This document shows, piece after piece, positions 23,797 through 52,499 of a stretch of 64,000 nucleotides of DNA. The notes under the pieces were generated by a model. That model saw only the letters and a program-made list of their open reading frames with translations, did not search any database and was not told the DNA's origin. Positions within the stretch are counted from its first letter, which is position 1. Each line of letters begins with the position of its first letter. Source of the stretch: Falsiroseomonas bella (GTDB taxonomy: Bacteria; Pseudomonadota; Alphaproteobacteria; Acetobacterales; Acetobacteraceae); NCBI RefSeq assembly GCF_003173615.1, contig NZ_QGNA01000002.1, forward strand, positions 620,001-684,000, written 5' to 3'. The translations under genes were made by a program, and so were the position numbers.

Positions 23797-23819
23797 TTCC
23801 TGGGAGAGAGGAGGCAACC

Positions 23820-29995: not shown

Positions 29996-30122
29996 TATCG
30001 TTTAGGCGGAATCGTCCTGCATGGGACCTCGGCTGCTGCCGGTCCAGTGCGGCACAAAGCTTGCTGTGGGAGCGCGGCTGCACTCCTCGGGAGGGCGCCG
30101 GAACGGAACTGGAGAGAACACA

Positions 30123-31772
30123 ATGAAAAGAACGGGTCTGCGCGCGCTACTGCTCGGCGTGGTCGCGCTCGCCGGCGTTGTGGGCACCGCGGCGGCACAG
30201 GAGCGTGTGCTGCGCATCGGCATGACGGCGGCGGACATCCCCCGCACGCTCGGCCAGCCGGACCAGGGCTTCGAGGGGAACCGCTTCACCGGCATCCCGC
30301 TCTATGACGCGCTGACCCATTGGGACCTCTCGAAGGCGGACCAGGCCTCGGTGGTCATCCCTGGCCTCGCCACGGAATGGGCAGTGGATGCGAACGACCG
30401 GACCAAGTGGGTGTTCCGCCTGCGCCCCGGCGTGCGCTTCCATGACGGCAGCCCGTTCAACGCGGCGGCCGTGGTGTGGAACGTCCAGAAGGTGTTGGAC
30501 CAGAACGCGCCGCATTTCGACCAGAGCCAGGTCGGCGTCACCGTCAGCCGGATGCCCACGCTGCGCAGCGCGCGCGCGATCGACGAGCTGACGGTGGAGC
30601 TCACCACTTCCGAGCCCGACAGCTTCCTGCCGATCAACCTGACCAACCTGTTCATGGCCTCGCCCGCGCATTGGCAGGCGAAGTTCAACGCCGTGCCCGC
30701 CAGCGTGACGGATCCCCGCGCGCGCGCGCAGCAGGCCTGGGCCGCCTTCGCGGCCGATCCCTCCGGCACCGGGCCGTTCCGCGGCGCCCGCTTCGTGCCG
30801 CGCGAGCGCTTCGAGATGACGGCGAACCGCGACTACTGGGACGCCGCCCGCCGCCCGCAGATCGACCGCGTGGTGCTGCTGCCGATCCCTGAGGCGAATG
30901 CGCGCACCGCCGCGCTGCTCGGCAACCAGGTGGACTGGATCGAGGCGCCGGCGCCGGACGCCGTGCCGCAGATCACACGCCGCGGCTTCGTCATGTACCA
31001 GAACGCCCAGCCGCATGTCTGGCCGTGGCAGTTCTCCTTCGTGGAAGGCTCGCCCTGGCTTGATCGGCGCGTCCGCCACGCCGCCAATCTCTGCGTCAAC
31101 CGCGAGGAGATGAAGCAGCTCCTCGGCGGGCTGATGGAGACCCCGCGCGGCTCCGTGCCGCCGGGCCATCCCTGGTGGGGCAACCCGTCCTTCAACATCC
31201 GCTACGACCTGCCCGAGGCGCAGCGCCTGATGCGTGAAGCCGGCCATTCGCCGCAGCGGCTGCTGCAGGTGCGTGTGCTGACCTCGGCCTCCGGCTCGGG
31301 CCAGATGCAGCCTGTTGTGATGAACGAGTTCCTCCAGCAGGCGCTGCGTGAGTGCTACTTCGACGTGCAGCTGGAAGTGGGCGAGTGGAACGCCGTCTTC
31401 ACCAACTGGCGCGAGGGCGCGCGGCATCCGAACGCCCGCGGCGCGAACGCGATCAACGTCACCTTCGCCACGATGGACCCGTTCTTCGCCATGGTGCGCT
31501 TCGTCTCCTCCGCGACGCAGCCGCCGGTGTCGAACAACTGGGGCCATTTCGTGAACCCCGAGTTTGACCAGCTGATCGCCGCGGCGCGCACCACCTTCGA
31601 CGCGGCCGGCCGCGACGCGGCACTCGCGCGCCTGCATGCCCGGATCGTGGAGGAGGCGCCGTTCCTCTGGGTCGCGCATGACGTCGGCCCCCGCGCGATG
31701 AGTGCACGGGTCAAGGGCGTGGTGCAGCCGCGTTCCTGGTTCATCGACATCGCGACGATGCGCATCGAGTAA
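30123..31772 (+). CDS. Peptide-type ABC transporter substrate-binding protein (second system)
   Basis: The protein is 549 aa. GGAGAG precedes the ATG, and the signal peptide LRALLLGVVALAGVVGTAAAQ has an Ala-rich cleavage site. SBP family 5 order is canonical: RIGMTAADIPRTLGQPDQGF, LRPGVRFHDGSPFNAAAV near residue 105, GTGPFRGARFVPRERF and a C-terminal lobe with LREC-YFDVQLEVGEWNAVF. It begins the second complete importer (30123-35637), separated from the AroM gene by 183 bases containing a likely promoter. Ligand unknown. Confidence 0.93.
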   Translation: MKRTGLRALLLGVVALAGVVGTAAAQERVLRIGMTAADIPRTLGQPDQGFEGNRFTGIPLYDALTHWDLSKADQASVVIPGLATEWAVDANDRTKWVFRLRPGVRFHDGSPFNAAAVVWNVQKVLDQNAPHFDQSQVGVTVSRMPTLRSARAIDELTVELTTSEPDSFLPINLTNLFMASPAHWQAKFNAVPASVTDPRARAQQAWAAFAADPSGTGPFRGARFVPRERFEMTANRDYWDAARRPQIDRVVLLPIPEANARTAALLGNQVDWIEAPAPDAVPQITRRGFVMYQNAQPHVWPWQFSFVEGSPWLDRRVRHAANLCVNREEMKQLLGGLMETPRGSVPPGHPWWGNPSFNIRYDLPEAQRLMREAGHSPQRLLQVRVLTSASGSGQMQPVVMNEFLQQALRECYFDVQLEVGEWNAVFTNWREGARHPNARGANAINVTFATMDPFFAMVRFVSSATQPPVSNNWGHFVNPEFDQLIAAARTTFDAAGRDAALARLHARIVEEAPFLWVAHDVGPRAMSARVKGVVQPRSWFIDIATMRIE

Positions 31773-35660: not shown

Positions 35661-35696
35661 CTGCGCCGGGGTGCGTAATGCCGCCCTCCGGCGCAG
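35661..35696. terminator. Inverted repeat between importer operon and amidohydrolase
   Basis: CTGCGCCGG (35661-35669) and CCGGCGCAG (35688-35696) are perfect 9-base complements around an 18-base loop, between the last ATPase stop and the amidohydrolase start 29 bases further on. No T-run follows. It could attenuate or partly terminate readthrough into the amidohydrolase gene. Confidence 0.35.
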
Positions 35697-35724
35697 TGCC
35701 GCGCTGTTTCGACGGGGCGATGCC

Positions 35725-36909
35725 ATGAATGCGATCCTCGTGAAGGGTGGCCTGCTGATCGACGGCACAGGCCGCGCGCCGCTGCAGGGCGGCGCCGTGC
35801 TGGTCGAGAACGGGCGCATCGCGGCGGTCGGCCGGCGGGAGGAGATCGCTGCGCCGCCCGGCGCCACCGTGATCGACCGCGGCGAGGAGACGCTGCTGCC
35901 CGGCCTGGTGGACGCGCACACGCATCTCTCCATCGTCCCGGGCCTCGGCAACCAGGGCGGCCAGTTGAAGAGCCGCGCGGCGCAGGCGATGCTGCGCGCC
36001 ATCCCGAACATGCGGAAGGACCTGCTCTCCGGCGTCACGACGATGCGCGTGGTGGGCGAGGAGCACTTCCTCGACATCGACATCCGTGACGCCGTGGCGG
36101 CGGGGCGCATCCCCGGCCCGCGGCTGCGCGTGGCGACGCGGCCCATCGCGGCGCGGCACGGCCATGGCACGGCGCTGACGGCGAGCGACGGGCCGGAGGA
36201 GATCCGCCGCCACATCCGCGAGAACCTCGCCGCCGGCGCCGACCTGATCAAGTTCTTCGCCACCGGCGGCACATCCTCCGCGCGGGCCGCGGCGGACACC
36301 TGCTTCTACTCGCCCGAGGAGATCCGGCTGATCGTGGAGGAAGCGCATCGCGACGGCCGGCCAGCGGCGGTGCATGCGCATGGCGGCCCGGCGATCCGCT
36401 GGTGCGTCGAGGCGGGCGTGGACACGATCGAGCACTGCAAGCTCGCGACGCCCGAGGACTTCGAGATGATGCGCCGGGCGGGCACCTGGATGGTGGCGAA
36501 CCACGCCATCTCCTTCCATCCCGAGGGGATCGAGGGCGGCGACGGCGGCAATCCGCGCATCATGGAGAAGCTCGCCATCTCCCGCCGCCGCGCGCCCGTT
36601 ACCTTCGGCCACGCGCTGCAGAGCCGCGTGAAATGGGCGCTGGGGACGGATTCCATGCATGGCCTGCTGTGGTTCGAGGCGCAGAAGGCGGTGGAGTTCG
36701 GCGCCACGCCGGAACAGGCGCTGGCCGCCGTCACGTGCAACGCCGCCGATGCGATCGGGATGCTTGCGGACATCGGCACGCTGGAGCCGGGCAAGTGCGC
36801 CGACATCGTATCGGTGCGCGGCAATCCGCTGCGCGACATCGCTGCGCTGCGCGAGGTCGGGGTGGTGATGAAGGACGGACGGCGCTTCGACCAGCTTTCG
36901 GCGGAGTAG
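35725..36909 (+). CDS. Amidohydrolase family protein (prolidase/imidazolonepropionase-like)
   Basis: The protein is 394 aa. The metal-site residues of the amidohydrolase barrel are all visible: H65-x-H67 (VDAHTHLS), a candidate carboxylated lysine K176 (LIKFFATGG), H217 (VHAHGG), H237 (EHCK) and catalytic D309 (LGTDSMH). The pattern IKFFATGG with VHAHG matches the subgroup of Xaa-Pro and N-acyl amino acid hydrolases. No signal peptide is present, so it acts in the cytoplasm, plausibly on peptides brought in by the adjacent importer. It is convergent with the third importer operon. Confidence 0.88.
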   Translation: MNAILVKGGLLIDGTGRAPLQGGAVLVENGRIAAVGRREEIAAPPGATVIDRGEETLLPGLVDAHTHLSIVPGLGNQGGQLKSRAAQAMLRAIPNMRKDLLSGVTTMRVVGEEHFLDIDIRDAVAAGRIPGPRLRVATRPIAARHGHGTALTASDGPEEIRRHIRENLAAGADLIKFFATGGTSSARAAADTCFYSPEEIRLIVEEAHRDGRPAAVHAHGGPAIRWCVEAGVDTIEHCKLATPEDFEMMRRAGTWMVANHAISFHPEGIEGGDGGNPRIMEKLAISRRRAPVTFGHALQSRVKWALGTDSMHGLLWFEAQKAVEFGATPEQALAAVTCNAADAIGMLADIGTLEPGKCADIVSVRGNPLRDIAALREVGVVMKDGRRFDQLSAE

Positions 36910-36932: not shown

Positions 36933-37907
36933 TCAGGCGAAGTGGCAGGCCACCGCGACGCCGTCGCCTGTGGCGCGCAGCGGCGGGTCTTCCTCCGCGC
37001 AGCGCGGCGCGGCCATGGGGCAGCGGTCGCGGAAGCGGCAGCCGGAAGGCGGCGTGCGCGCATCCGGCACGTTGCCCTTGATCGGCAAGGGATCGCGCGG
37101 CTGGTCCACGCGGGGCAGCGGCACCGCCTGCACCAGGGCGCGCGTGTAGGGGTGGCGCGGCTCGCGCACCACCTCCTCGGTCGGCCCTTCCTCCACGACG
37201 CGGCCGAGATACATCACCAGCGTCCGGTCGCAGACATAGCGCACCAGCGCGAGATCATGGCTGATGTAGAGCGCGGCGACGCCGAGCGTCTCCCGCGCCT
37301 CGCGCATCAGGTTCAGGATGCCGGCGCGAACCGAGACGTCCAGCATCGAGACCGGCTCGTCCGCCACCAGGAAGCTCGGCTCCAGGATCAGCGCGCGTGC
37401 CAGCACGACGCGCTGCAACTGCCCGCCCGAGAGCTCGTGCGGGAAGCGGGGCAGGTAGCGCTCTGCTTCCGCCAGGCGCACGCGCCGCATGGCGAGCGCG
37501 ATGCGGTCGTCCCATTCCGCGCGCGGGATGCGCATGTTGCGCAGCGGCTCCACCAGGCTGTCGCGGATGGTCAGGCGCGGGTTCAGCGCGTCGAAGGGGT
37601 TCTGGAAGACCAGCTGCGCCTGGCGCCGGAAGCCGCGCATTCCTTCCTTGTCGAGGCGCGACAGATCCGTGCCGCGGAAGGTGATGCTGCCGGAGGTCGG
37701 CTCCAGCAGGCGCAGCAGCAGCCGCGCCGTCGTGGTCTTGCCGCAACCCGATTCGCCGACGATCGCCGCCGTCTGACCAGGCGCGAGGCTGAGTGAGATG
37801 CCGTCCACCGCGCGCACGATGGGGCGGCGCCCGGCCATCACGTCGGCGAAGCTGCGCGGCGCGGCGAAGTGCATGGTGAGGTCGGTGGCCTCGATCAGCG
37901 TCGCCAC
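36933..37907 (-). CDS. ABC transporter ATP-binding protein, DppF type (third system)
   Basis: The protein is 324 aa. Motifs: Walker A GESGCGKTT, Q-loop LVFQNPFDALNPRLT, signature LSGGQLQRVVLARAL, Walker B FLVADEPVSMLDV and the CRFRDRCPMAAPRC C-terminal extension. Its start overlaps the end of the upstream DppD-type gene by 13 bases. It is the last gene of the third importer operon on the minus strand. Confidence 0.93.
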   Translation of the reverse strand: MATLIEATDLTMHFAAPRSFADVMAGRRPIVRAVDGISLSLAPGQTAAIVGESGCGKTTTARLLLRLLEPTSGSITFRGTDLSRLDKEGMRGFRRQAQLVFQNPFDALNPRLTIRDSLVEPLRNMRIPRAEWDDRIALAMRRVRLAEAERYLPRFPHELSGGQLQRVVLARALILEPSFLVADEPVSMLDVSVRAGILNLMREARETLGVAALYISHDLALVRYVCDRTLVMYLGRVVEEGPTEEVVREPRHPYTRALVQAVPLPRVDQPRDPLPIKGNVPDARTPPSGCRFRDRCPMAAPRCAEEDPPLRATGDGVAVACHFA

Positions 37908-38902
37908 GTCGCGGCCTCCCCGGCAAGCGGGCGCAGCGCCGCGGCTTCGTCCGACCGCCAGCAGGCGGCTGCGTGGCCGTCCACTTCCGTGCGCAGCGGC
38001 GGTTCCTCGGCGACGCAGCGTGCTTCCGCGAAGGGGCAGCGAGGGGCGAAGCGGCAGCCCTTCGGCGGATCGAGCAGGTTGGGCGGGCTGCCCTCGATCG
38101 GGACGAGCTCGCCGGCGGCGCGCTCGAGGTCGGGGAAGGCGTTGTTCAACCCCATCGTGTAGGGGTGACGCGGGCGCTCCAGCACGTCGCCGACGCGCCC
38201 GGATTCCACCACGCGCCCGGCATACATCACGACGACGCGGTCGCAGGCATAGGCGACGACGCTGATGTCATGCGTGACCAGCACGACCGAAAGCCTGAGC
38301 CGCGCCTGCAATTCCTTCAGCACGTCCAGCACCTGGCGCTGCACGATGACGTCCAGCGCCGTCACCGGCTCGTCCGCCAGCACCAGCTTGGGCTCGAGCG
38401 CCAGCGCCATGGCGATGGAGGCGCGCTGCTTCATCCCGCCAGAGAACTGATGCGGATAGTCGTCCAGGCGCCGTGCATCGATGCCCACCAGGGCGAAAAG
38501 CTCCTCGGCGCGGGCGCGTGCCTGCGAACGGGAACGCCCGCCGCGCTCGACCAGCACCTCCTCGATCTGGCGTCCGACGCGATAGACGGGATCAAGGGCG
38601 TTCATCGCCGTCTGCGGGATGAAGGCCATCTCCTTCCAGCGCAGCGCGCGGCGTTCGCGCTCCGAGAGCCGGATCAGGTCGCGACCCTCGAACAGCACGG
38701 GGCCGCCGAGGATGTCGGCCGTGCGCGGCACGACGCCCATGACGGCGCGTGCGACCGTGGTCTTGCCGCAGCCGGATTCGCCGACGAGGCCCACCACCTC
38801 GCCACGCGGGACGGAGAAGCTTGCGCTGTCCACCGCATGCACCGGGCCCTGCGACGTGCGGTAGCGGACGGTGAGGTCCCGGATGGAGAGCAGGTCTTCC
38901 AA
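37895..38902 (-). CDS. ABC transporter ATP-binding protein, DppD type (third system)
   Basis: The protein is 335 aa. Motifs: Walker A GESGCGKTT, Q-loop FIPQTAMNALDPVYR, signature FSGGMKQRASIAMAL, Walker B LVLADEPVTALDV and the CRFAPRCPFAEARC C-terminal extension. The Q-loop (IPQTAMNALDP) and signature (FSGGM) are of the type seen in the peptide/opine importer subgroup. It follows the permease by 3 bases. Confidence 0.93.
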   Translation of the reverse strand: MEDLLSIRDLTVRYRTSQGPVHAVDSASFSVPRGEVVGLVGESGCGKTTVARAVMGVVPRTADILGGPVLFEGRDLIRLSERERRALRWKEMAFIPQTAMNALDPVYRVGRQIEEVLVERGGRSRSQARARAEELFALVGIDARRLDDYPHQFSGGMKQRASIAMALALEPKLVLADEPVTALDVIVQRQVLDVLKELQARLRLSVVLVTHDISVVAYACDRVVVMYAGRVVESGRVGDVLERPRHPYTMGLNNAFPDLERAAGELVPIEGSPPNLLDPPKGCRFAPRCPFAEARCVAEEPPLRTEVDGHAAACWRSDEAAALRPLAGEAATWRR

Positions 38903-38905
38903 CGC

Positions 38906-39802
38906 TCAGGACCTCAGCTTCGGGAACAGGATCTCCTCGTAGCCGCGGCTGATGAAGAAGCCGGCGAGCACGACGAGCACGATGCAGAGTCCGGGCGGGA
39001 TGAACCAGTTGTAGGCGCCGCGCCCCATCGCCTGACTGGCATACGCGTCCTGCAGCATGCCGCCCCAGGAGATCACGCTGGGATCGCCGAAGCCGAGGAA
39101 GCTGGCCGAGGCTTCGGTCAGGATCGCCCAGCCGACGGCTATCGAGCCGTAGAGGAAGGACAGCGGCAGGATCGAGGGCGCGACATGCACGAACAGGATG
39201 CGCCAGGTGGAGCAGCCGGTGACGCGCGCGGCCTCCACGAAGGCGCGCTCCCGCACGGTCAGCACTTGGCTGCGGATCACGCGCGCAGTGTTCGGCCACA
39301 GCAGCACGGCGACGCTGAAGACGATGGTCGCCGTGCCGGGCCGCGTCAGCGCCGCGAGCACGATGACGAAGGGCAGGAAGGGCAGGCCCAGCACCACATC
39401 GGCCAGCCGCATCACGACCGTGTCCACCCACCCGCGGAAGAAGCCGGAAAGCAGGCCGAGCAGCGTGCCGATCGCGGCGACGCAGAAGGCTGCCGTCAGC
39501 CCCACCACCACGGCGCTACGGCTTCCATAGACGAGCTGCGAGAAGATGTCCCGCCCGCCATGCGTCGTGCCGAGCAGATGGTCCCAGGACATCGGCAGGT
39601 TGCGCGCGATGCGGTAGCGCCCGGTGTAGAGGATCTCGGACGGGTCATGCGTCGCGATCCGGTCCGCGAAGATCGCGACCAGGATCAGCGCCAGGTAGAT
39701 CAGCGTGCCGGCCAGCGCGAACCAGTCGCGCGAGGCGATCCGCAGCACGCGCCCGATCTGTCCCGACGCGGTGCGCCAAGCCGATGGCCGCGCAGGGGCC
39801 AT
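38906..39802 (-). CDS. ABC transporter permease, DppC type (third system)
   Basis: The protein is 298 aa from the ATG at 39802, which has GAAGG upstream and lies 10 bases after the preceding stop; an in-frame ATG at 39829 would overlap the previous gene by 17 bases and has no evident ribosome site. DppC motifs: DHLLGTTHGGRDIFSQLVYG, EAA loop RAFVEAARVTGCSTWRI and ASASFLGFGDPSVISWGGM. It partners the DppB-type gene upstream. Confidence 0.9.
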   Translation of the reverse strand: MAPARPSAWRTASGQIGRVLRIASRDWFALAGTLIYLALILVAIFADRIATHDPSEILYTGRYRIARNLPMSWDHLLGTTHGGRDIFSQLVYGSRSAVVVGLTAAFCVAAIGTLLGLLSGFFRGWVDTVVMRLADVVLGLPFLPFVIVLAALTRPGTATIVFSVAVLLWPNTARVIRSQVLTVRERAFVEAARVTGCSTWRILFVHVAPSILPLSFLYGSIAVGWAILTEASASFLGFGDPSVISWGGMLQDAYASQAMGRGAYNWFIPPGLCIVLVVLAGFFISRGYEEILFPKLRS

Positions 39803-39812
39803 GACGGCGCCT

Positions 39813-40790
39813 TCAGCCCTTGCGTCCATGCGACACCCGCGGATCAAGCCAACCATAGAGAAGATCGGCGACGAGGTTCATCAGAACCAGCACCGCCGCG
39901 ATGATGAGGAAGGCGCCCTGAGCCAGCGGATAGTCGCTGCCCTGCACGGCGGTGACGAGCATGCGCCCGAGGCCGGGCCAGGAGAACACCGTCTCCACCA
40001 CCACATTGCCGCCGACCGATCCGCCGATGCCCAGTGCGAAGGCGGTGGCGACCGGAAGCAGCGCGTTGCGCGCCGCGTGGCGGATGACGATGGTCCATTC
40101 AGAGAGGCCCTTCATGCGGGCCATGGTGACGAACTCGTCCTGCATCACCTCCAGCATGGTGCTGCGCATCAGCAGCAGCGGCAGCCCCTGCAGATAGACC
40201 GCCAACGCGAGCGCGGGCAGGAGCAGGTGATAGAGGAAATCCAGGCTGAACAGCCTCTCCCACTCGCTGCCATACTCGGCGCCGGCGCTCGCCGCGCCAC
40301 CCGAGGGGAACCAGCCATAGCCGAAGGCGAAGATCGCCAGAAGGATCATGCCGAGCCAGAATTCCGGCGCCGCGCGGGTCGCCAGCACCAGCGGAATGGC
40401 GACGCCTTCCGTCAGGCTGCCGCGCTTCCAGGCCAGGAAGGCGCCGGCGATGACGCCGAAGATGTAGGCGACGATCAGGGCGGAGAGCGTGAGCGCCACC
40501 GTCAGCGGCAGCGCCTCCAGCACCAGCTCCAGCACCGGCCGGCCCTGCAGGAAGCTGTTGCCGAGCTCACCGCGCAGCAGGTTCTTCAGGTAGATCAGGT
40601 ATTGCACGTACAGCGGCTGATCGAGCCCGAAGGCCACCAGCATGTTCTGCCGCTGCTCCTCCGTCATGGAGGTGTCGATGTAGTTGAGCGTGGGGTCGCC
40701 CGGCATCAGGCGGAACATCAGGAAGCACAGCGTCGCCACGACCCACAGGACGAAGACCGCCTGGATCAGGCGTTGCCCGACATACCCCAC
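39813..40790 (-). CDS. ABC transporter permease, DppB type (third system)
   Basis: The protein is 325 aa from a GTG start (GYVGQRLIQAVFVLWVVATL). DppB features: MFRLMPGDPTLNYIDTSMTEE, a lengthy extracytoplasmic loop (PSGGAASAGAEYGSEWERLF), an EAA-type loop DEFVTMARMKGLSEWTI and a C-terminal LMNLVADLLYGWLDPRV. It begins 19 bases after the receptor gene, in the same operon. Confidence 0.92.
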   Translation of the reverse strand: MGYVGQRLIQAVFVLWVVATLCFLMFRLMPGDPTLNYIDTSMTEEQRQNMLVAFGLDQPLYVQYLIYLKNLLRGELGNSFLQGRPVLELVLEALPLTVALTLSALIVAYIFGVIAGAFLAWKRGSLTEGVAIPLVLATRAAPEFWLGMILLAIFAFGYGWFPSGGAASAGAEYGSEWERLFSLDFLYHLLLPALALAVYLQGLPLLLMRSTMLEVMQDEFVTMARMKGLSEWTIVIRHAARNALLPVATAFALGIGGSVGGNVVVETVFSWPGLGRMLVTAVQGSDYPLAQGAFLIIAAVLVLMNLVADLLYGWLDPRVSHGRKG

Positions 40791-40809: not shown

Positions 40810-42492
40810 TCAGTTCGGCGTCGTCTGCTCGCGCGTGCCGGCCGGGTAGTGCAGCCGGCCGTTCACGACGCGATAGCCCGCCTCCTGCAGGATGCGCTGC
40901 GCCTGATCGAGGCCGGAGGGCAGCATCCCCACGATCCCCTCGCGGTGCCAGAAGGGCAGGGCGGGCGAGACGTGGCTGTTGGCCGGTTCCGCGAAGCCGT
41001 TCCACGCCGCCTCCGCCATCAGCTCACGGTTCACCGCGGCGGAAAGGGCGCGGCGGAAGGCCGGGTCGTTGAAGGGCGGCCGACGCATGTTCCAGCCGAG
41101 GAACTGGAAGCCGACATCCACCGCCTCGTTCATGACGATATTGCGGTTGCGCGAGACCAGCTGCTTCACCAGGTCCGGGTCGCCCGTGTAGTCGGCGAGG
41201 AAGTTGATCTCGCCGCGGTTCAGCATGCCGAGCGTGGCTTCCACGTTCTGCACGATGCGCAGGATCCAGCGCTCGATCTTCGGTGCGGCCCAGTGGTCGG
41301 CGTTGCGCTCCAGCACGATCTCCTCGGAGAGGCGGGCGCGCGACACCTTGAAGGGGCCGGAGCCGATCGGGCGTTCCACGACGAAGCGCTCGATGTTCTC
41401 CGGGCGGTTCTGGTAATCGCGCAGCACCGGTTCCCAGGCGGACTTCTGGATGATGTTGAGCTTTGCGAGGGAGGAGGTGAAAAAGCCCGCATCGGCCTGT
41501 TTCAGCGTGATGCGGAAGCTGCGGTCGCCGGTCTTCTCGACCTTCGCAATGTTGAGCACGAAGGGCCGGTACATCGGCACCTCGTTGCCGATCGCCGGCG
41601 CTTCGAAGCTGAAGATGCAGTCGTCCACCGTCACGGGCGAGCCATCGTGGAACTTCATGCCCTGGCGGATGGTGATGTCGATGGTGGTGGGGTCCACCTG
41701 CGTCACCGTCTCGGCCGCCCAGGGGCGCGGCAGGCCGTCCGGCCCGATGCGCATGATGCGGTCCCAGACCAGCTCGGTGACCCAGGAATCCGTGGCGCCG
41801 CTGATCCAGAGCGGATGGATCGCCTGCACCGGCTCCGATGCGTTCAGCACCATGTCGCGGCGGTTGCCCACCGGCTCCACGCCCAGATAGGTCCAGATGT
41901 TCCGAAGGCCGAGGCCGGCTTGGTTGACCAGCGTGCCTTCCCGCAGTTGCGCCTTGTTGAAGGCGTGGACCTGCTTCGGATGCACCAGGAACAGATAGGG
42001 CTGGCCCTGGTTCACCCGCTCCTGGGCGGCGCGGATGATCTCGCGCCGCCGGTCTGGGTTTGTCTCCACGCGCTGCGCTTCGGCAAGGCGGTCGTATTCC
42101 GGGTCCGCCCAGCCGACGAAGTTGAAGCCGGTCGGCGCCGTGGAGGAGTGGAACAGGTTGAACACCAGCTCATCCGGGTCGCTGCGTTCCGGGCGGCCGA
42201 CCATCTGCCACATGGTCATGTCCCATTCCTGGCGGCGGTTCCACACCACCTCGGACTGCTGCTGGCGGGGCAGGGGACGGATCTCCACGTCAAGACCCAG
42301 CTTGCGCCATTCCTGGGCGATGATCTCGGCGGCTTGGTAGGCCTGCGGATTGTTCGATTGCGGGCGGCTCAGGATCACCAGCTTGCGGATCGGATCGCCC
42401 GCCTGCTGCGCCGCCGCGCCGCGCGCGCCGAGGCCACCGGCAGCCAGCGCCGCGGCGATGGCCGTCCCCTGGATCAAGTCACGACGACGCAT
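40810..42492 (-). CDS. Peptide-type ABC receptor with circularly permuted SBP_bac_5 fold (third system)
   Basis: The protein is 560 aa; GGGAGG precedes the ATG and a twin-arginine-like signal opens it (RRRDLIQGTAIAAALAAGG). The domain order is unusual. Residues about 36-205 (AAEIIAQEWRKLGLDVEIR; RSDPDELVFNLF; DPEYDRLAEAQR) match what is normally the C-terminal segment of family 5 receptors. The usual N-terminal segment follows (LNASEPVQAIHPLW; IRQGMKFHDGSPVT at about 275-288), and the chain ends in DQAQRILQEAGY, which normally directly precedes the C-terminal segment. This is the signature of a natural circular permutation. It serves the importer at 36933-40790 and is divergent from the M28-like gene. 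Confidence 0.88.
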   Translation of the reverse strand: MRRRDLIQGTAIAAALAAGGLGARGAAAQQAGDPIRKLVILSRPQSNNPQAYQAAEIIAQEWRKLGLDVEIRPLPRQQQSEVVWNRRQEWDMTMWQMVGRPERSDPDELVFNLFHSSTAPTGFNFVGWADPEYDRLAEAQRVETNPDRRREIIRAAQERVNQGQPYLFLVHPKQVHAFNKAQLREGTLVNQAGLGLRNIWTYLGVEPVGNRRDMVLNASEPVQAIHPLWISGATDSWVTELVWDRIMRIGPDGLPRPWAAETVTQVDPTTIDITIRQGMKFHDGSPVTVDDCIFSFEAPAIGNEVPMYRPFVLNIAKVEKTGDRSFRITLKQADAGFFTSSLAKLNIIQKSAWEPVLRDYQNRPENIERFVVERPIGSGPFKVSRARLSEEIVLERNADHWAAPKIERWILRIVQNVEATLGMLNRGEINFLADYTGDPDLVKQLVSRNRNIVMNEAVDVGFQFLGWNMRRPPFNDPAFRRALSAAVNRELMAEAAWNGFAEPANSHVSPALPFWHREGIVGMLPSGLDQAQRILQEAGYRVVNGRLHYPAGTREQTTPN

Positions 42493-42692
42493 GGTCGACC
42501 TCCCGCTTCCCAGATGTCTGCCCGCGCTGGCGGCCTGCGCGTCCGTATCCGCGCCGCACGCCCGCTTCTCTCCCGGTGGGTCAGTTTGACGCAGGCGCCG
42601 CCGATTGCAACCGCGTCCACACCCTCTTTTCGTGCGTCGCGGCGGGTGACAGCCTGCGCTTCGATCCGCCACTGCCTGGGAAGGGAGCACCC

Positions 42693-44426
42693 GTGATCAC
42701 CGAACAGGAACGCCGTCTGCTCGACGCCGTCAGCCTCGACGCACCGTGGGAGCTGGTCGAGACCTTCTCCCGCATGCCGCGCTGGCGGCCTGAAGACGTG
42801 AACAAGGGCGCCGACGCCATCGCCGACCGGTTGCGCCGCCTCGGCGTGCCGGTGACGATGCATGAGCCGGAGATCTACCTCTCCATCCCCCTCTCCGCCT
42901 CGGTCGAGGCCGGCGGCGTCACGCACCGCGCCAAACCGCCCTCGATGTCCCTTTCGGTGCCGGAAGGCCGGAGGGCGAAGCTGGTCTATCTGCCGGCGAA
43001 CCAGAAGGCGCTGCGATCCTATTCGCGCGACGTGCAGGAGCTGTTCGGCGGCACCATCGCGTCCGAGGACGAAGCGCGCGCCAAGGTCGCCGGCTGCATC
43101 GTGGTCACCGAAGGCTTCGGCAACCCGGCGCTCAGCTCGCTGGTCGAGGAATGGGGTGCGGTTGGCCTGATCGCCTGCAATCCGGGCGTGGACATCCACT
43201 GGGGCACCTGCACGACGATCTGGGGCACGCCCGACCTCGACGACCTGCCGCGCAAGCCGAAGATCCCGGTCGTCGCGGTGAACAAGGCGACGGGCGAGGC
43301 GCTGATGGCGCTGGCGCGCGAGGGCGGCGAGGCGACGATCCGCACCGAGATGCTGGAGGGCTTCTTCCCGCAGAAGATCCCCGTCGTGGACATCCCTGGC
43401 GACGAGACCGACTACGTGCTGCTGCACGGCCACTACGATTCCTGGGACGTCGGCGTCGGCGACAACGCCACGGGCGACGCCACGATGCTGGAGATTGCGC
43501 GCGTGCTGTGGGCCAATCGCGGCCAGCTTCGCCGCGGCGTGCGCATCGCCTGGTGGCCCGGCCATTCCACCGGCCGCTATGCCGGCAGCACCTGGTTCGC
43601 CGATGCCTTCGCGCTCGACCTCGATGCGCATTGCGTCGCACAGGTGAACTGCGACAGCCCGGGCTGCCGCTGGGCGAGCAGCTTCCACGCCACCACGACC
43701 ATGAGCGAAACGGCCAGGCTGGTGGAGGCCGCGATCAAGGACATCGTGCCCGACGCCGTGTTCAAGACGAAGCGGCCGAACCAGGCGGGCGACTACTCCT
43801 TCAACAACATCGGCATAAGCAGCTTCTACATGCTGAGCTCGACCATGCCGGACGACCTGCGCAAGGAGAAGAACTACTACGACGTCTCGGGCTGCGGCGG
43901 GAACATCGCCTGGCACACCGAGAACGACCAGCTGGAGATCGCGGACAAGGACAATCTGCTGCGCGACATCCGCATCTACCTGCTCTCCGTGCTGCGCCTG
44001 ACGCAGCCGGAGCTGCTGCCCTTCGACTGGGTGGCGGTCGCGGAGGAATTTGCCGCCACGGTGGATCGCTATGCCAAGGCGGCGGCCGATCACGCCGACC
44101 TCTCGCCGGCGAAGGAGGCGACGGCCGCCTTCCACGCGGCCGTGGCGCGGCTGCAGGGCGACGCGGCGGCAGGCCGCCTGCCGGCCGCCCGCGCCAATGC
44201 GCTGTCCAAGGCGATGGCGCGCATCCTGGTGCCGATCAACTTCACCCGCACGCCGCGCTTCGCGCATGATCCGGCCTTCACCGCGCCGCCACTGCCGGGG
44301 CTTGCCGTGGCGGCGGAGCTGCCGCGCGCGCGTGGCGCCATGCTCGGCTTCGCCAAGACACAGCTGCTGCGCGGCCAGAACCGCTACGTCGCCGCGATGC
44401 GGGACGCGACCCGGCTGGTGGGTTGA
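42693..44426 (+). CDS. M28 family peptidase-like protein with altered active-site Glu pair
   Basis: The protein is 577 aa from a GTG preceded by GGGAAGGGAG. A PA-like insert (about residues 95-225) precedes the M28 catalytic region. Zinc-ligand candidates are H247 (HGHYDSW), D257 (VGDNATG), D321 (NCDSPG) and H408 (AWHTEND). The normal Glu-Glu pair, expected in a GAEE-type motif, is replaced by PGHS at 289-292 (WWPGHSTGRYAGS). Either H291 serves as ligand with a different catalytic base, or activity differs from a standard aminopeptidase. No signal peptide is evident. It is divergent from the permuted receptor, suggesting it processes the imported peptide. Confidence 0.85.
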   Translation: MITEQERRLLDAVSLDAPWELVETFSRMPRWRPEDVNKGADAIADRLRRLGVPVTMHEPEIYLSIPLSASVEAGGVTHRAKPPSMSLSVPEGRRAKLVYLPANQKALRSYSRDVQELFGGTIASEDEARAKVAGCIVVTEGFGNPALSSLVEEWGAVGLIACNPGVDIHWGTCTTIWGTPDLDDLPRKPKIPVVAVNKATGEALMALAREGGEATIRTEMLEGFFPQKIPVVDIPGDETDYVLLHGHYDSWDVGVGDNATGDATMLEIARVLWANRGQLRRGVRIAWWPGHSTGRYAGSTWFADAFALDLDAHCVAQVNCDSPGCRWASSFHATTTMSETARLVEAAIKDIVPDAVFKTKRPNQAGDYSFNNIGISSFYMLSSTMPDDLRKEKNYYDVSGCGGNIAWHTENDQLEIADKDNLLRDIRIYLLSVLRLTQPELLPFDWVAVAEEFAATVDRYAKAAADHADLSPAKEATAAFHAAVARLQGDAAAGRLPAARANALSKAMARILVPINFTRTPRFAHDPAFTAPPLPGLAVAAELPRARGAMLGFAKTQLLRGQNRYVAAMRDATRLVG

Positions 44427-46669: not shown

Positions 46670-48739
46670 ATGCCCTCAGATCAGCGCAGCGCCCAGCCCG
46701 GTCCGCTCTCCGTCGCGGTGGATGCGGGGGGCACCTTCACCGACATCGTCCTGGTCGACCGCGGCAGCGGCCATCGTTGGGAGGCGAAGGTTCCCTCCAC
46801 GCCGGACGACCGCTCCCGCGCCTTCGCGGACGGGATCGCCAAGGTGCTATCCCTCGCCGGCCGCAACGCCGGCGAGATCACCCATGTGCTCCACGGCACC
46901 ACCGTTGCGACCAACGCGATCCTGGAACGCAAGGGCGCGCTGGCCGGCCTGCTGACCACGGCCGGGCTGCGCCACGTGCTGGAGATCGGCCGGCACGACA
47001 TTCCCCGGCACGAGAATCTCTATTCATTCACCAAGCCGCGCCGCCCCATCCCGCCGGAGCAGGTGACGGAGGCGCGGGAGCGCCTGGCGGTGGATGGCAG
47101 CGTCGTGACGCCGCTGGACGAGGACGACGTGCGCGCGGCGGCGGCGGAATTCCGCCGACTCGGCGTGCAGGCCGTCGCCGTCTGCTTCCTGCACGCCTAT
47201 GCCAACCCTGCGCATGAGCGCCGCGCGGCGGAAATCCTGGCGCGGGAACTGCCCGGCGTGCCGGTGACGCTCTCCACCGAGGTCCTGCCGGTCTTCCGCG
47301 AATACGAGCGCAGCATGGCGACCGCGCTGAATGCCTATGTCATGCCCGCCGTCTCCACCTATGTCCGCCGGATCGAGGCGCGCCTGAAGGAAGCGGGCGT
47401 CGCCGCGCCGCTGCTGCTGATGAAGTCCTCAGGCGGCGTGATCCGCGGCGAGGGCGCGGCGAAGCAGCCGGTGCAGACGGCGCTCTCCGGCCCCGCCGGC
47501 GGCGTGGTGGGCGCCCGCGCGCTCGGCCTGCAGGCGGGGCATCCCCGGCTGATCACACTGGATGTCGGCGGCACCTCGGCCGACATCTCGCTGATCGATG
47601 GCGAGCCGCGGCTGACGACGGAAGGCAAGGTGGGCGACTGGCCGCTGACCCTGCCGATGATCGACATCCACACGATCGGCGCCGGCGGCGGCTCCATCGC
47701 GCGCGTCTCGCCGGAAGGCGCGCTGCTGGTCGGCCCCGCCAGCGCGGGCGCAGATCCCGGCCCCGTTGCCTATCGCCGCGGCGGCGAGGAGCCGACGCTG
47801 ACCGACGCGAACCTGGTGCTCGGCCGCCTGCCGCCCTCGCTGCTGGATGGCGCGATCACGCTGGATGTGGACGCCGCCGCGCGCGCCATCGAGAGCCGCG
47901 TGGCACGGCCGCTCGGCCTCTCGCTGCACGACGCCGCGCGCGGCATCGTCGCGGTGGCGGACAACACCATGGCGGGCGCGATCCGTGTGGTCTCCGTGCA
48001 GCGCGGGCATGATCCTGTCGATTTCGCGCTCCTGCCCTTCGGCGGCGCCGGGCCATTGCAGGGCGGCGCAATCGCGCGGTTGCTGGGCATGAAGCGCATC
48101 CTGGTGCCATCGCGCCCCGGCGTGCTCTCCGCCGAGGGGCTGATCGCGGCGCCCTTGCGCAACGAGTTCGCGCGCACGGTGATGCTGCGCGCGCCCATCG
48201 CCGACCCCGCGCCGCTCGCCGCCGCCTTCGGCGCGCTGGATGCGGAAGCGGCGGCCTGGCTGCTGGCGGAAGCGGTGCCGGAGGCGGCGCGCGAGATCCG
48301 CTGGCGTGCGGGCATGCGCTACGTCCACCAGGGCTTCGAGCTGTTCGTGGACTGGCCCGGCCGCAGCGCCGATCCCGCGACGCTCGCCGCCGCCATCGAG
48401 CGCTTCCACGACGAGCATGAGCGCCTCTACACCTTCGCGCAGCGCGACACTGCGGTGGAGATCGTGACGCTGGAGGTCACCGCGCTCGGTCGGTTGCCTG
48501 GCCCCGTAGCGGAGCGCATCGCGCCGGCGGGCGCGGTCGAGCCGGTGTCGCACGCGGTGGTTCAACTCGACGACGGGGAAGCGCGCGTGCCGGTCTGGCG
48601 CCGCGACACGCTCGGCGCCGGCGCGGTGCTGAAGGGCCCGGGCATCGTCGTGCAAATGGACGCGACGACCTGGCTGCATCCGGGCGATGTGGCGACGATG
48701 GATGCGTATGGGAATCTGCTGGTGGAGGTGGGGGCGTAG
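46670..48739 (+). CDS. Hydantoinase/oxoprolinase subunit A (HyuA-like)
   Basis: The protein is 689 aa with the ATP-binding start VAVDAGGTFTDIVLVDRGSG, the conserved HGTTVATNAILERKGA, STEVLPVFREYERSMATALNAYV and DVGGTSADISLIDG. HyuA subunits carry the ATPase half of ATP-dependent N-methylhydantoinases and 5-oxoprolinases and need a HyuB partner. The nearest HyuB gene lies immediately downstream but on the opposite strand, an unusual arrangement. It is a clear paralogue of the HyuA at 52486. Confidence 0.93.
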   Translation: MPSDQRSAQPGPLSVAVDAGGTFTDIVLVDRGSGHRWEAKVPSTPDDRSRAFADGIAKVLSLAGRNAGEITHVLHGTTVATNAILERKGALAGLLTTAGLRHVLEIGRHDIPRHENLYSFTKPRRPIPPEQVTEARERLAVDGSVVTPLDEDDVRAAAAEFRRLGVQAVAVCFLHAYANPAHERRAAEILARELPGVPVTLSTEVLPVFREYERSMATALNAYVMPAVSTYVRRIEARLKEAGVAAPLLLMKSSGGVIRGEGAAKQPVQTALSGPAGGVVGARALGLQAGHPRLITLDVGGTSADISLIDGEPRLTTEGKVGDWPLTLPMIDIHTIGAGGGSIARVSPEGALLVGPASAGADPGPVAYRRGGEEPTLTDANLVLGRLPPSLLDGAITLDVDAAARAIESRVARPLGLSLHDAARGIVAVADNTMAGAIRVVSVQRGHDPVDFALLPFGGAGPLQGGAIARLLGMKRILVPSRPGVLSAEGLIAAPLRNEFARTVMLRAPIADPAPLAAAFGALDAEAAAWLLAEAVPEAAREIRWRAGMRYVHQGFELFVDWPGRSADPATLAAAIERFHDEHERLYTFAQRDTAVEIVTLEVTALGRLPGPVAERIAPAGAVEPVSHAVVQLDDGEARVPVWRRDTLGAGAVLKGPGIVVQMDATTWLHPGDVATMDAYGNLLVEVGA

Positions 48740-48832: not shown

Positions 48833-50653
48833 CTACGACGCCATCGCTTCCCACCAGGCATCGGCGTCGCGGTACGCGCCGTGCCGATGGAACATCCCCT
48901 CCACCATCGGCCGATCCGAGCGCAACGCCGCCGTCGCCGCCTCGTCCACCGCGCGGTCCTTGCCCTCGCCCAGGACCACGCCGTAGTCGCGCCGCGCCGC
49001 CTCCACGCTGACGAAGCCGCCCAGCACGTCCTGCCGCACGCGCCAGGGCTCGCGGTCATACGGATGCCCCCAGCCGCCGCCGCCGGTGCTTTCCATCCGC
49101 ACGACATCGCCCTTCTTCGTGGGTATGCCCTGCGCCAGGCGCGGCAGCTCGCGCTCCTCCGGCGTGCCCGGGTTCAGGATGAACCGCCCGGGCCGCCCGC
49201 TCTGCCCGCCCTTCACGCCCCAGGGCGGGTTCTCCACGTTGTCCATGCGGGTGTTGAGCGTGGCGCCGTCCACCAGCACTTCCATCTCCCGCACCATGCC
49301 ACAGCCGCCGCGCCAGCGCCCCGGTCCGCCGGAATCGCAGCGGATCGCGTAGGTGCGGATGCGCACGGGGAAGTCGGTCTCCATGAACTCGATGGGGTAG
49401 TTCTGCTGCGCGACGTAGTAGATGACGTCGAGCCCGTCGGCGAAGGGCCGCGCGCCCTGGCCCGTGCCGTGCCCGCCGGATTTGTAGAACAGGCTGCCGT
49501 CATGCGGCTGCCGGCCGGTCAGGGTATAGATGGTATAGATCGAACTCGCCGCCGGGCTGTCGCCGCCCGTCGCCTGCGCGATCAGCCCAAGGCAGCCGGA
49601 GACCACGCGCGCCAGCGAATTCGACCGCTGCCCGAGCGGCGCCGGCCAGGCCGGCTGGATGATCGTGCCGGTCTTCGTGCGCACATCCTCGATGGCCGTC
49701 AGCAGGCCCTCATTCATCATCACGCTGGGATCGTCGGCGAGGAGATAAAGGCCGAACACCGTGTTCGGCACGGTCGGGTTCATCAGGAAGTTGATGGGTC
49801 CCTTGGCCTGCGGGTCGGACTCGGTCGTGTCCAGCGTGAAGCCGTCCTCTCGCGATTCCAGGGTGAAGCGCACCGTAAAGGGACCACCGCCCTTGCCATC
49901 CGCATCCACCCGGTCGGCGAAGCGCCAGGTGCCGCCCGGCGGGAACAGCTCCTTCAGCCGTCGCCGGAACAGGCGCGACGTCTGGTCGATCATCGCATCC
50001 ACGGCGCCCAGCAGCTTTTGGGTGCCGAAGCGCGCGAACAGTTCCTGCAGACGCTTCTCTCCCAGCCGCACCGCCGCTGTCAGTGCGCGCGTATCCCCAC
50101 GCGCGTGCTCCGGGAAGCGGGAATTACGAACAAAAGTCTCGAACAGGTCGGTGTTGAGCACGCCTTCGCGGTACAGCCGCACCGGCGGCACGATGATGCC
50201 TTCCTGGAAGATGCTTTCGGTGCCCGGCGTGTTCGATCCCGGCCAGGCGCCGCCGATATCGCGGAAATGCGCCCAGCTCTGCGCGAAGGCCACCAGCTCT
50301 CCATCCACGAAGACCGGGGTCGCGAAGACCTGGTCCGAGGTGTGGGAGACGCCGCCGCGCGAGAAGTAGCAGTCGTTGTACCAGAAGATGTCGCCCGGCC
50401 GGATCTCCTCGGCCGGGAAGCGCTTCAGGATGGGGCGCAGCACATCGCCGAACAGGGGCAGCTTGGTGCCGGTCACCAGCTTTCCGTCGGCGGCGTAGAA
50501 GCCTATGAAGTAGTCCTGCTTTTCCCGGATCACCGGGGACATGGCGGTGCGTTCCAGCAGCGCCTCGCATTCCGCCTGGGCCGAGCGCAGCGCGCCCTTG
50601 ATGATCTCGACCGTCACCGCATCCGGCGCATGCCGCGTGCCCGAACCGTCCAT
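48833..50653 (-). CDS. Hydantoinase/oxoprolinase subunit B (HyuB-like), minus strand
   Basis: The protein is 606 aa starting MDGSGTRHAPDAVTVEIIKG; upstream in-frame starts give no family sequence. HyuB hallmarks: FWYNDCYFSRGGVSHTSDQV, the AHFRDIGG motif, CDSGGPGRWRGGCG and a C-terminal TGGGGWGHPYDREP with FVSVEAARRDYGVV. In the family this subunit supplies the hydrolytic active site for cyclic amide opening. It is divergent from a second HyuB gene (50739), 85 bases apart, and convergent with HyuA at 46670. Confidence 0.93.
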   Translation of the reverse strand: MDGSGTRHAPDAVTVEIIKGALRSAQAECEALLERTAMSPVIREKQDYFIGFYAADGKLVTGTKLPLFGDVLRPILKRFPAEEIRPGDIFWYNDCYFSRGGVSHTSDQVFATPVFVDGELVAFAQSWAHFRDIGGAWPGSNTPGTESIFQEGIIVPPVRLYREGVLNTDLFETFVRNSRFPEHARGDTRALTAAVRLGEKRLQELFARFGTQKLLGAVDAMIDQTSRLFRRRLKELFPPGGTWRFADRVDADGKGGGPFTVRFTLESREDGFTLDTTESDPQAKGPINFLMNPTVPNTVFGLYLLADDPSVMMNEGLLTAIEDVRTKTGTIIQPAWPAPLGQRSNSLARVVSGCLGLIAQATGGDSPAASSIYTIYTLTGRQPHDGSLFYKSGGHGTGQGARPFADGLDVIYYVAQQNYPIEFMETDFPVRIRTYAIRCDSGGPGRWRGGCGMVREMEVLVDGATLNTRMDNVENPPWGVKGGQSGRPGRFILNPGTPEERELPRLAQGIPTKKGDVVRMESTGGGGWGHPYDREPWRVRQDVLGGFVSVEAARRDYGVVLGEGKDRAVDEAATAALRSDRPMVEGMFHRHGAYRDADAWWEAMAS

Positions 50654-50738
50654 CGCTTGCCTCGCGCGTGAAGGGGCAAGGCTAGCGGCGCTGCGGGGGC
50701 TGTGCAACGCGCCGCGGCCAAGTGTAGCCTTCCGCTTC

Positions 50739-52499
50739 ATGGAAAGACGCTGCGATCCCGTCTCCCTCGAGGTCATCCGTGGTGCCATCCGCGCCGCCCA
50801 GGCGGAGATGGAGGCGCTGATCGAGCGCACCGCCATGTCCGCCTTCATCCGCGAGAAGAAGGACTTCTATACCGCCCTGTTCGATGCGGATGGCGTGATG
50901 GCCGTGGGCTCCAACGTGCCGGTCTTCGGCGATGTCTGCGGGCCGGTGTTCCGCGACTTTCCGGCCGAGACGATGAAGCCGGGCGACGTCTACTGGTACA
51001 ACGACTGCTACGGCTCCCGCGGCGCCGTCTCCCACTCCAACGACCAGGTGCTGCTCGCGCCGGTGTTCCACGAAGGACGCCGCGTCGCGCTGGTCATGGC
51101 CTGGGCGCATTTCGCCGATATCGGCGGGCTGCGGCCGGGCTCGATCTCGCCCGACGCCACCGAGATCTTCCATGAGGGCGTCATCATCCCGCCCACCAGG
51201 CTCTCCGACGGCGGCGTCGTGAACGAGGCGACGCTCAAGATATTCTTCCGCAACTCGCGCTGGCCCGCGGCCTGCCAGGCGGATCTGCGCGCGCTGCTGG
51301 CCAGCGTCGGCCTCGGCGCGACGCGCATGGCGGAGATCGCTGCGCGCTTCGGCACCGATGTGCTTGCCGACGCTCTGCGCCAACTGCTCGCGCGCACCGA
51401 GGCGACGATCCGGACCAAGCTGGCGGAAACCTTTCCCGTCGGCACGCATCGCTTCACCGATCGCATCGACGGCGACGGCAAGGGCAGCGGCCCGCTGGCG
51501 CTGCGCTTCGCCCTCACCCGCACGCCGAACAACCGCTTCGTCTTCGATGCCGAGGCGACGGACGACCAGTCGCCTGGACCGGTGAACTACCTGATGAACC
51601 CGGATGTGCCGGGCATGGCGCTCGGCCTGTTCCTGCTCGGTGGCGATCCGACGCAGGTGACGAATGCCGGCGGCCCGCGCGCCATCGACGAGGTGAAGCT
51701 GCGCGAGGGTTCGCTGCTGCAGCCGCGCTGGCCGGCAGCGCTCGGCATGCGCGGCCTGACCATGATGCGCATGCTGGCCGCGCTGAACGGCCTGGTCGCG
51801 GCCGCGGGCGGTCCCGCGCCGGCCGCACATGCCGCCTATGTCATCATGCTGCTGCGCGGCCTTGCGGGCGGAAAGCCCTTCCTGATGAGCGACGGCATCG
51901 GCGTGGGCTATGGCGCGCGCCCCTTCGCGGACGGCACCGACGCCGTCTATTTCGTCGCGCAGGAGAACTACCCGGTCGAATTCCTGGAAGCCGAATATCC
52001 CGCGCGCCTGCTGCGCTACGGCGTGCATGAGGACAGCGGTGGCCCCGGCCGCCACCGCGGCGGCTGCGGCATCGTCCGCCACTACGAGATCCTGGCCGAG
52101 GAAGCCGTGCTCGCCGTGCGCATCGACGGCGTGCAATGCCCGCCCTGGGGCGTCGCCGGCGGCCAGTCCGGGCGCCCCGGCCGCGCCGTGGTCAATCCCG
52201 GCACGCCGCGCGAACGCGTGCTCGCGCCGCTCTCGGACGGCAACCGCCTGGTGCGCGGCGACATCCTGCTGATCGAGACCGGCGGCGGCGGCGGCCACGG
52301 CCATCCCTTCGACCGCCCGGCGCAGCAGGTGCTGGAGGATGTCGAGGGCGGCTTCGTCAGCGCCGAGGCCGCGCTGCACGACTACGGCGTGGTGATCCGC
52401 GACGGTGTGCTGGACGAGGCCGCCACCGCCGCCCGCCGGCAGGACCGGCCCGCATCCAAGGCGTTCCACCGGGTGGCCTATGCCGATGTCCTCGAATAA
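50739..52499 (+). CDS. Hydantoinase/oxoprolinase subunit B (HyuB-like), plus strand
   Basis: The protein is 586 aa starting MERRCDPVSLEVIRGAIRA. It is paralogous to the minus-strand HyuB, sharing YWYNDCYGSRGAVSHSNDQV, AHFADIGG, EDSGGPGRHRGGCG and TGGGGGHGHPFDRP. Its 3' end overlaps the next gene, a HyuA, by 14 bases, so these two form a conventional coupled pair. The likely activity is ATP-dependent hydrolysis of a hydantoin or lactam, substrate unknown. Confidence 0.93.
   Translation: MERRCDPVSLEVIRGAIRAAQAEMEALIERTAMSAFIREKKDFYTALFDADGVMAVGSNVPVFGDVCGPVFRDFPAETMKPGDVYWYNDCYGSRGAVSHSNDQVLLAPVFHEGRRVALVMAWAHFADIGGLRPGSISPDATEIFHEGVIIPPTRLSDGGVVNEATLKIFFRNSRWPAACQADLRALLASVGLGATRMAEIAARFGTDVLADALRQLLARTEATIRTKLAETFPVGTHRFTDRIDGDGKGSGPLALRFALTRTPNNRFVFDAEATDDQSPGPVNYLMNPDVPGMALGLFLLGGDPTQVTNAGGPRAIDEVKLREGSLLQPRWPAALGMRGLTMMRMLAALNGLVAAAGGPAPAAHAAYVIMLLRGLAGGKPFLMSDGIGVGYGARPFADGTDAVYFVAQENYPVEFLEAEYPARLLRYGVHEDSGGPGRHRGGCGIVRHYEILAEEAVLAVRIDGVQCPPWGVAGGQSGRPGRAVVNPGTPRERVLAPLSDGNRLVRGDILLIETGGGGGHGHPFDRPAQQVLEDVEGGFVSAEAALHDYGVVIRDGVLDEAATAARRQDRPASKAFHRVAYADVLE

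Follow-up and report, generated by a model that had tools for sequence, protein, structure and literature searches.

Among ABC receptors, a natural circular permutation has been described before in TpMglB-2 (Tp0684) of Treponema pallidum, which has relatives elsewhere in bacteria and which is proposed as Type Ic/Cluster Bc, a permuted form of the Type I/Cluster B class of sugar receptors (PMC4990184). The same article reports that TpMglB-2 retains ligand binding and a ligand-induced change, and names membrane anchoring as a possible reason for the permutation. Within the open-licence PMC literature, represented mostly by titles and abstract openings and in several cases by the first entries of longer lists, we found no natural permutation of a family 5 receptor, in line with the initial annotation, which knew of no described case; in the available text of the articles consulted, a natural receptor permutation appeared in PMC4990184 only and not in PMC12344293, PMC2588589, PMC12136057, PMC10601554, PMC12311786 or PMC2265533.

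Here we describe a receptor encoded in a 64,000-nucleotide stretch of the Falsiroseomonas bella genome (the window). With high confidence, we regard it as a family 5 (cluster C) receptor, serving a Dpp/Opp-type importer, whose chain has been circularly permuted in nature, and as a member of an old branch that forms a single clade. It shares with TpMglB-2 that it is a naturally permuted ABC receptor and that other bacteria have relatives of it; TpMglB-2, however, belongs by description to another receptor class, whereas the sequence matches of the present receptor are to family 5-type chains. We place it in a permuted branch that is new within an otherwise known receptor family, natural permutation being already known in another class. 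Compared with family 5 receptors (DppA, OppA and AppA 1xoc; PF00496), the protein is homologous nearly throughout once rotated (436 columns) and belongs to the same BCDF operon type, but its segment order is rotated and its new termini lie inside the canonical chain. Identity to E. coli DppA is ~21% (102 of 475 aligned positions).

Parts and segment order of the receptor

The receptor gene was found on the minus strand at the place initially annotated, and its parts are collected with the neighbouring genes in Table 1. In the 560-residue precursor, an N-terminal signal sequence with an RR-x-L-I motif, which we take to be Tat-like, is followed by AAEIIAQEWRKLGLDVEIR at residue 54, DPDELVFNLF at 105, DPEYDRLAEAQR at 130, FHDGSP at 281 and DQAQRILQEAGY at 529, and the positions originally given for FHDGSP (about 281) and for the terminal DQAQRILQEAGY were recovered. 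The window's two other family 5 receptors carry the equivalents of FHDGSP at ORF residues 118 (FHNG) and 140 (FHDG); numbered from the inner Met at 10 and at 35, respectively, they fall at ~109 and ~106, within the range of 105–115 quoted for them beforehand. The permuted chain ends at EAGY..GRLHYPAG, past which canonical chains run on. The internal joint links the former C-terminus to the former N-terminus and holds a P176-x-G178 motif that is constant across all 23 rows of A1, the alignment (and profile) of 23 mature permuted homologues.

Table 1 Coordinates of the permuted receptor gene, its parts and other genes discussed in the window
Feature	Coordinates	Strand	Remarks
Permuted family 5 solute receptor gene	40810..42492	-	ATG start, 560 codons
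Displaced segment, mature residues 1-177	41869..42399	-	homologous to C-terminal part of canonical family 5 receptors
New internal joint, ~mature residues 170-183	41851..41892	-	bounds approximate
Canonical N-terminal part, mature residues 178-529	40813..41868	-	ends EAGY..GRLHYPAG
DppB/OppB-type permease	39813..40790	-	best NCBIfam match, below cut-off
DppC/OppC-type permease	38906..39856	-	best NCBIfam match, below cut-off
DppD/OppD-type ATPase	37895..38902	-	best NCBIfam match, below cut-off
DppF/OppF-type ATPase	36933..37907	-	best NCBIfam match, below cut-off
Amidohydrolase-family gene	35671..36909	+	best NCBIfam match Xaa-Pro dipeptidase, below cut-off
M28 peptidase family gene	42576..44426	+	divergent
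Other family 5 receptor	23793-25421		SBP_bac_5, canonical order
Other family 5 receptor	30021-31769		SBP_bac_5, canonical order
Hydantoinase A-type gene	46670-48739	+
Hydantoinase B-type gene	48833-50848	-
Hydantoinase B-type gene	50541-52499	+
Hydantoinase A-type gene	52405-54522	+

Evidence for the rotated order was obtained from profile and pairwise comparisons. The Pfam model SBP_bac_5 (PF00496) matched all 23 members of A1 and scored 223.9 bits with the receptor (cut-off 32.4), the better of two stretches aligning residues 255–546 with positions 2–284 of the 368-position profile. A phmmer search against the PDB paired receptor residues 260–545 with residues 70–349 of AppA (1xoc, 95.6 bits), and residues 48–175 with 1xoc 370–492 (25.8 bits), inverted relative to the first match. 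When A1 was compared with nine checked canonical receptor rows by hhalign, the unrotated alignment gave two inverted matches, at columns 195–509 (363) and 16–151 (103), and rotation at column 178 gave a single match of 436 columns (score 451, E 4.8e-59). A profile of the displaced segment (177 mature residues) matched 1xoc at 375–496 (E 4.4e-12) and DppA (1dpp) at 355–480 (E 1.6e-9). Up to E 1, 42 of its 44 PDB matches bear names of ABC binding proteins (for peptides, nickel, heme and others), the remaining two being 3rqt, a 'putative uncharacterized protein' (E 0.0013), and 4fyp, which is unrelated (E 0.32); the 27 matches at E <0.01 are receptor chains plus one unnamed protein, all hit in their C-terminal part.

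As a control, the two parts of A1 were found in the opposite order in all 29 canonical receptors in which both parts match, namely three paralogues from the same genome (L004, L005 and L007), the window's two and 24 from other genomes among L077–L106, a set in which L104 duplicates the permuted locus L075; the other canonical rows matched A1 by one part only. With the whole A1 profile, the best stretch started at column 178 or later in each of the 60 PDB sequences listed of 101 matched, and the rotated order occurred in none of these 60. A weaker first rotation scan, whose canonical profile included one wrong-frame ORF (window 20028) among its nine rows, returned a single long domain after rotation in 13 of the 23 rows and not in the other 10. 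The inverted AppA and hhalign matches bear out the proposed arrangement of a C-terminal-type segment followed by an N-terminal-type one, and the collinear full-length profile match that would have spoken against it is absent, the Pfam and hhalign alignments being split and the latter becoming one match once rotated. Judged by these alignments, the receptor is a circular permutation, in that its two parts are homologous to one canonical protein, swapped, and joined by rotation; they also place the opening of the chain after the hairpin EAGY..GRLHYPAG and before the strand KLVIL.

Structure prediction points the same way. AlphaFold2 modelled the full chain (23 rows) with a mean pLDDT of 85.9 and a pTM of 0.83, with blocks of 81–92 at residues 141–190 around the joint and a block average of ~80 (lowest 58) for the displaced segment, which, modelled alone (18 rows), reached a pLDDT of 55.9 and a pTM of 0.40. 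Because the full chain is predicted confidently and the displaced segment alone poorly, the models speak for one interlocked fold and not a free extra domain. In structure comparison, VIA aligned model residues 173–523 with 1xoc 18–359 (Z 25.3, rmsd 5.4, 334 aligned), the 50 VIA rows listed spanning model residues 150–527 only, mostly from ~173 onward; 1xoc was also the top-ranked Foldseek chain, in rows that give no ranges. The 50 VIA and 50 Foldseek rows listed name peptide, nickel, opine, sialic acid, heme and similar binding proteins, which we take to be family 5; that other families are missing from these rows carries no weight. Of the two partial unrelated domains considered at the outset as the contrary outcome, the prediction thus gave instead one confident fold, although the superposed part comprises residues 173–523 only. 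The permuted protein most likely adopts the usual two-lobe receptor fold, as far as these models indicate.

Relatives, distribution and selection

Homologues with the same rotated order, which the initial annotation had suggested counting, are present in several phyla and form one clade. A scan of genome contigs recovered 26 loci encoding relatives along the rotated query, among 38 pattern-matching stretches, with labels of Roseomonas and kin, Rhodobacteraceae and kin, other alpha- and betaproteobacteria, Armatimonadetes and a Halanaerobiales MAG. In genome samples that may overlap and that include the own or centre genome, A1 was detected in 13 of 59 relatives (5 of 45 genera; one match partial), 13 of 385 genomes of the class of F. 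bella (one partial), 7 of 244 genomes of the order of a Rhodobacteraceae-labelled genome, 16 of 43 genomes of the phylum of the Armatimonadetes-labelled G067 (two cut short), 6 of 149 genomes of the phylum of the Halanaerobiales-labelled G069, and 1 of 398 genomes in the sample of the F. bella phylum (F. bella itself, with at most three candidates scored per genome), all of these counts being lower bounds given thresholds of E 1e-50 to 1e-120 and the few candidates scored per genome in the larger samples. Twelve genomes picked for holding a permuted receptor each gave one match at E 1e-50. Among 72,556 plasmid records, 13 carry a permuted receptor over at least 80% of the query. The permuted receptor is therefore widespread but patchy in its distribution, and rare outside the sampled groups.

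Two branches can be told apart by score: close full-length relatives reach ~710–950 bits with A1, and a divergent branch (L056, L061–L064, L072–L076 and L107) reaches ~280–410 bits with the same segment order. Of 79 permuted ORFs, a number that counts repeat copies of loci, 77 end 0–5 residues past the profile match, the two exceptions being one gapped contig. Alignment of 41 permuted proteins, trimmed to the profile match, gave 36 columns identical in at least 40 of the 41, among them R72 and D74–P75 in the loop taken up below with Glu71. After exclusion of near-duplicates, partial rows and canonical rows beyond size limits, quick unrooted trees, both with long and mostly canonical branches, placed the permuted receptors in one clade, whether built from 40 permuted and 32 canonical rows (SH-aLRT 100) or from the rotation-free main segment alone of 41 permuted and 32 canonical rows (SH-aLRT 99). 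By these comparisons, the permuted receptors are an old branch with two sub-branches. A single origin of the permutation is most likely, as the simplest reading of these unrooted trees and not a proof. At L033 and L055, from an Armatimonadetes MAG, the receptor is interrupted by undefined residues and resumes in another frame, probably at an assembly gap.

Against its nearest relative (L009), the mature receptor has a dN of 0.041, a dS of 0.434 and a dN/dS of 0.095, and is under purifying selection. The corresponding values are 0.041, 0.599 and 0.068 for the displaced segment and 0.041, 0.363 and 0.114 for the rest of the mature protein. A faster-evolving displaced segment, which appeared when the signal sequence was counted in, was rejected, mature dN being 0.041 in both parts. 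Conservation and the operon indicate that the receptor is probably functional.

Operon, ligand and signal sequences

As initially annotated, the receptor heads a complete importer operon, with permease and ATPase genes next on the same strand (40790–36933); the best named matches of these four genes are of Dpp/Opp/Nik type, each under the cut-off of every listed NCBIfam model. Of 50 related loci, 46 have a B-type permease gene on the strand of the receptor; the others, within the stretches covered, are L030, at a contig end, and L120, L121 and L122. The loci are not independent, since several are closely related and some lie on contigs that stop early. The usual gene order is receptor-B-C-D-F, and the receptor comes last in L108 and L112. 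L120 has weaker C, D and F matches upstream, on the strand of the receptor, and closer F, D and C matches downstream on the opposite strand; L121 and L122 have their transporter genes on the opposite strand from the receptor. At these three loci, the partner of the receptor may be a separate permease. The B and C permease matches lie ~1.2–1.3 kb apart in L110 (9789–11082) and L109 (4124–5292) of the divergent branch, unlike in many other loci, where they are close together.

The divergent M28 peptidase family gene of the window has a relative in 25 of the 50 loci and in none of the 10 divergent-branch loci. Relatives of the amidohydrolase-family gene occur near the operon in 4 of the 50 (L032, L111, L114 and L118) and are absent beside the nearest relatives. 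Hydantoinase A- and B-type genes also lie in the window (Table 1), and relatives of the first hydantoinase A gene were found at 15 of the 50 loci; this recurrence could point to a substrate of the cyclic amide or lactam-like kind.

Known ligands of family 5 receptors include peptides, nickel complexes, opines and others. The residues of DppA that hold the dipeptide, R383 and D436, are replaced in A1 by Gln14 (22 of 23 rows; Lys in one) and Glu71 (23 of 23), the latter within an RPER motif at a position that varies in the divergent branch. The nine canonical rows mostly lack these residues as well (Arg at the R383 position in none, Asp at the D436 position in L005 only), so the replacements mean only that the ligand may be something other than a plain dipeptide. 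In DppB, the scoop-loop residues E41–R42 are described as contacting DppA R383 and D436 (PMC12136057). The pair E41–R42 was seen in none of the 21 other permeases aligned; the permeases of the window's two canonical operons lack it too, so its absence is uninformative on the permutation. Judging from the M28 and amidohydrolase neighbours present in some loci, there is about an even chance that the ligand is a peptide or peptide-like amide. Against it count the replaced DppA residues, the lack of M28 genes at the divergent-branch loci and the lack of the amidohydrolase beside the nearest relatives.

Crude patterns identified Tat-like signal motifs in 22 of 41 permuted proteins, some of which may be chance matches, and a lipobox in 2 of 41; lipobox-like FIGC, FTGC and FMGC were read by eye in L064, L107 and L061. 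We presume that many proteobacterial members carry Tat-like signals and that five divergent-branch members carry lipobox-like ones. Since both kinds of member occur, membrane anchoring does not seem to be a shared explanation for the permutation. The branch differs here from the anchoring idea put forward for TpMglB-2, having many Tat-like signals without a visible lipobox and few lipobox-like ends.

Origin and meaning of the rotated chain

The order of segments might in principle be mimicked by misassembly, by a frameshift or by a chimaera of two broken receptor genes. The F. bella genome (5.9 Mb) contains 57 stretches matching the receptor, a very large family 5 set in which the window's own gene is the only whole-query match, and this abundance makes recombination between copies conceivable. 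Homologues with the same order and the same ends, found in many separate assemblies and in both branches, nevertheless refute such an artefact, purifying selection on the receptor also speaks against it, and we regard its probability as negligible. A fusion, in which a separate N-terminal piece loosely resembling a receptor C-terminus was joined to a truncated receptor, would fit the weaker match of the displaced segment (25.8 against 95.6 bits in 1xoc), and the authors of TpMglB-2, in the available portions of their article, likewise weighed a different-gene origin for its permuted part (PMC4990184). Yet all 27 PDB matches of the segment at E <0.01 fall in the C-terminal part of receptors and one unnamed protein, the segment supplies exactly what the rest of the receptor is missing, and its model is poor in isolation but good as part of the complete protein; we consider a fusion of this kind very improbable, if slightly less so than an artefact.

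A different question is whether the permutation has any effect. That it is real, topologically neutral and inherited, with ordinary family 5 function, is compatible with the reading of a naturally permuted receptor and appears fairly likely to us: the permuted proteins form one clade with conserved operons, and TpMglB-2, as far as the available text reports, keeps its ligand binding and ligand-induced change (PMC4990184). Nothing stands directly against neutrality, the nearest to a counter-argument being the branch's own conserved loop residues, which need not stem from the permutation. The branch itself, with its two deep sub-branches, is established, and its receptor would be the founding case of a permuted cluster C group ('Cluster Cc', cf. 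Cluster Bc). We think it rather unlikely, by comparison, that the move of the termini into the other half of the receptor altered its export, its stability, the opening of its lobes or its docking to the permease, and that the rotation was kept by selection on that account.

For the naturally permuted receptor, we propose that the rotated chain arose, most likely once, by tandem duplication or fusion followed by trimming of both ends; loss of the front of the first copy and the tail of the second would yield the observed boundaries, and no duplication or fusion intermediate was seen among the loci found. By sequence, a short linker joins the old C- and N-termini; the signal sequence would sit on what was formerly an inner strand of the canonical chain. 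The receptor would be exported via this signal sequence and most likely work like any Venus-flytrap receptor of a Dpp-type importer, closing on its ligand and, as the operon suggests, passing it to its own BCDF permease; with about equal chances for and against, the M28 and amidohydrolase neighbours would then cut a peptide or peptide-like amide.

Uptake proteins of family 5 are very common in bacteria, as the set in this one genome illustrates. An old lineage with a rotated chain implies that this large receptor fold tolerates new termini, and it amounts to a natural experiment: does it matter for export and transport which half bears the N-terminus? A permuted receptor may also be of use as a sensor scaffold. 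Rotations of this kind stay hidden in profile annotation, as the plasmid records illustrate: of the 13 that carry a permuted receptor, 8 name a gene there, and all 8 call it 'ABC transporter substrate-binding protein'.
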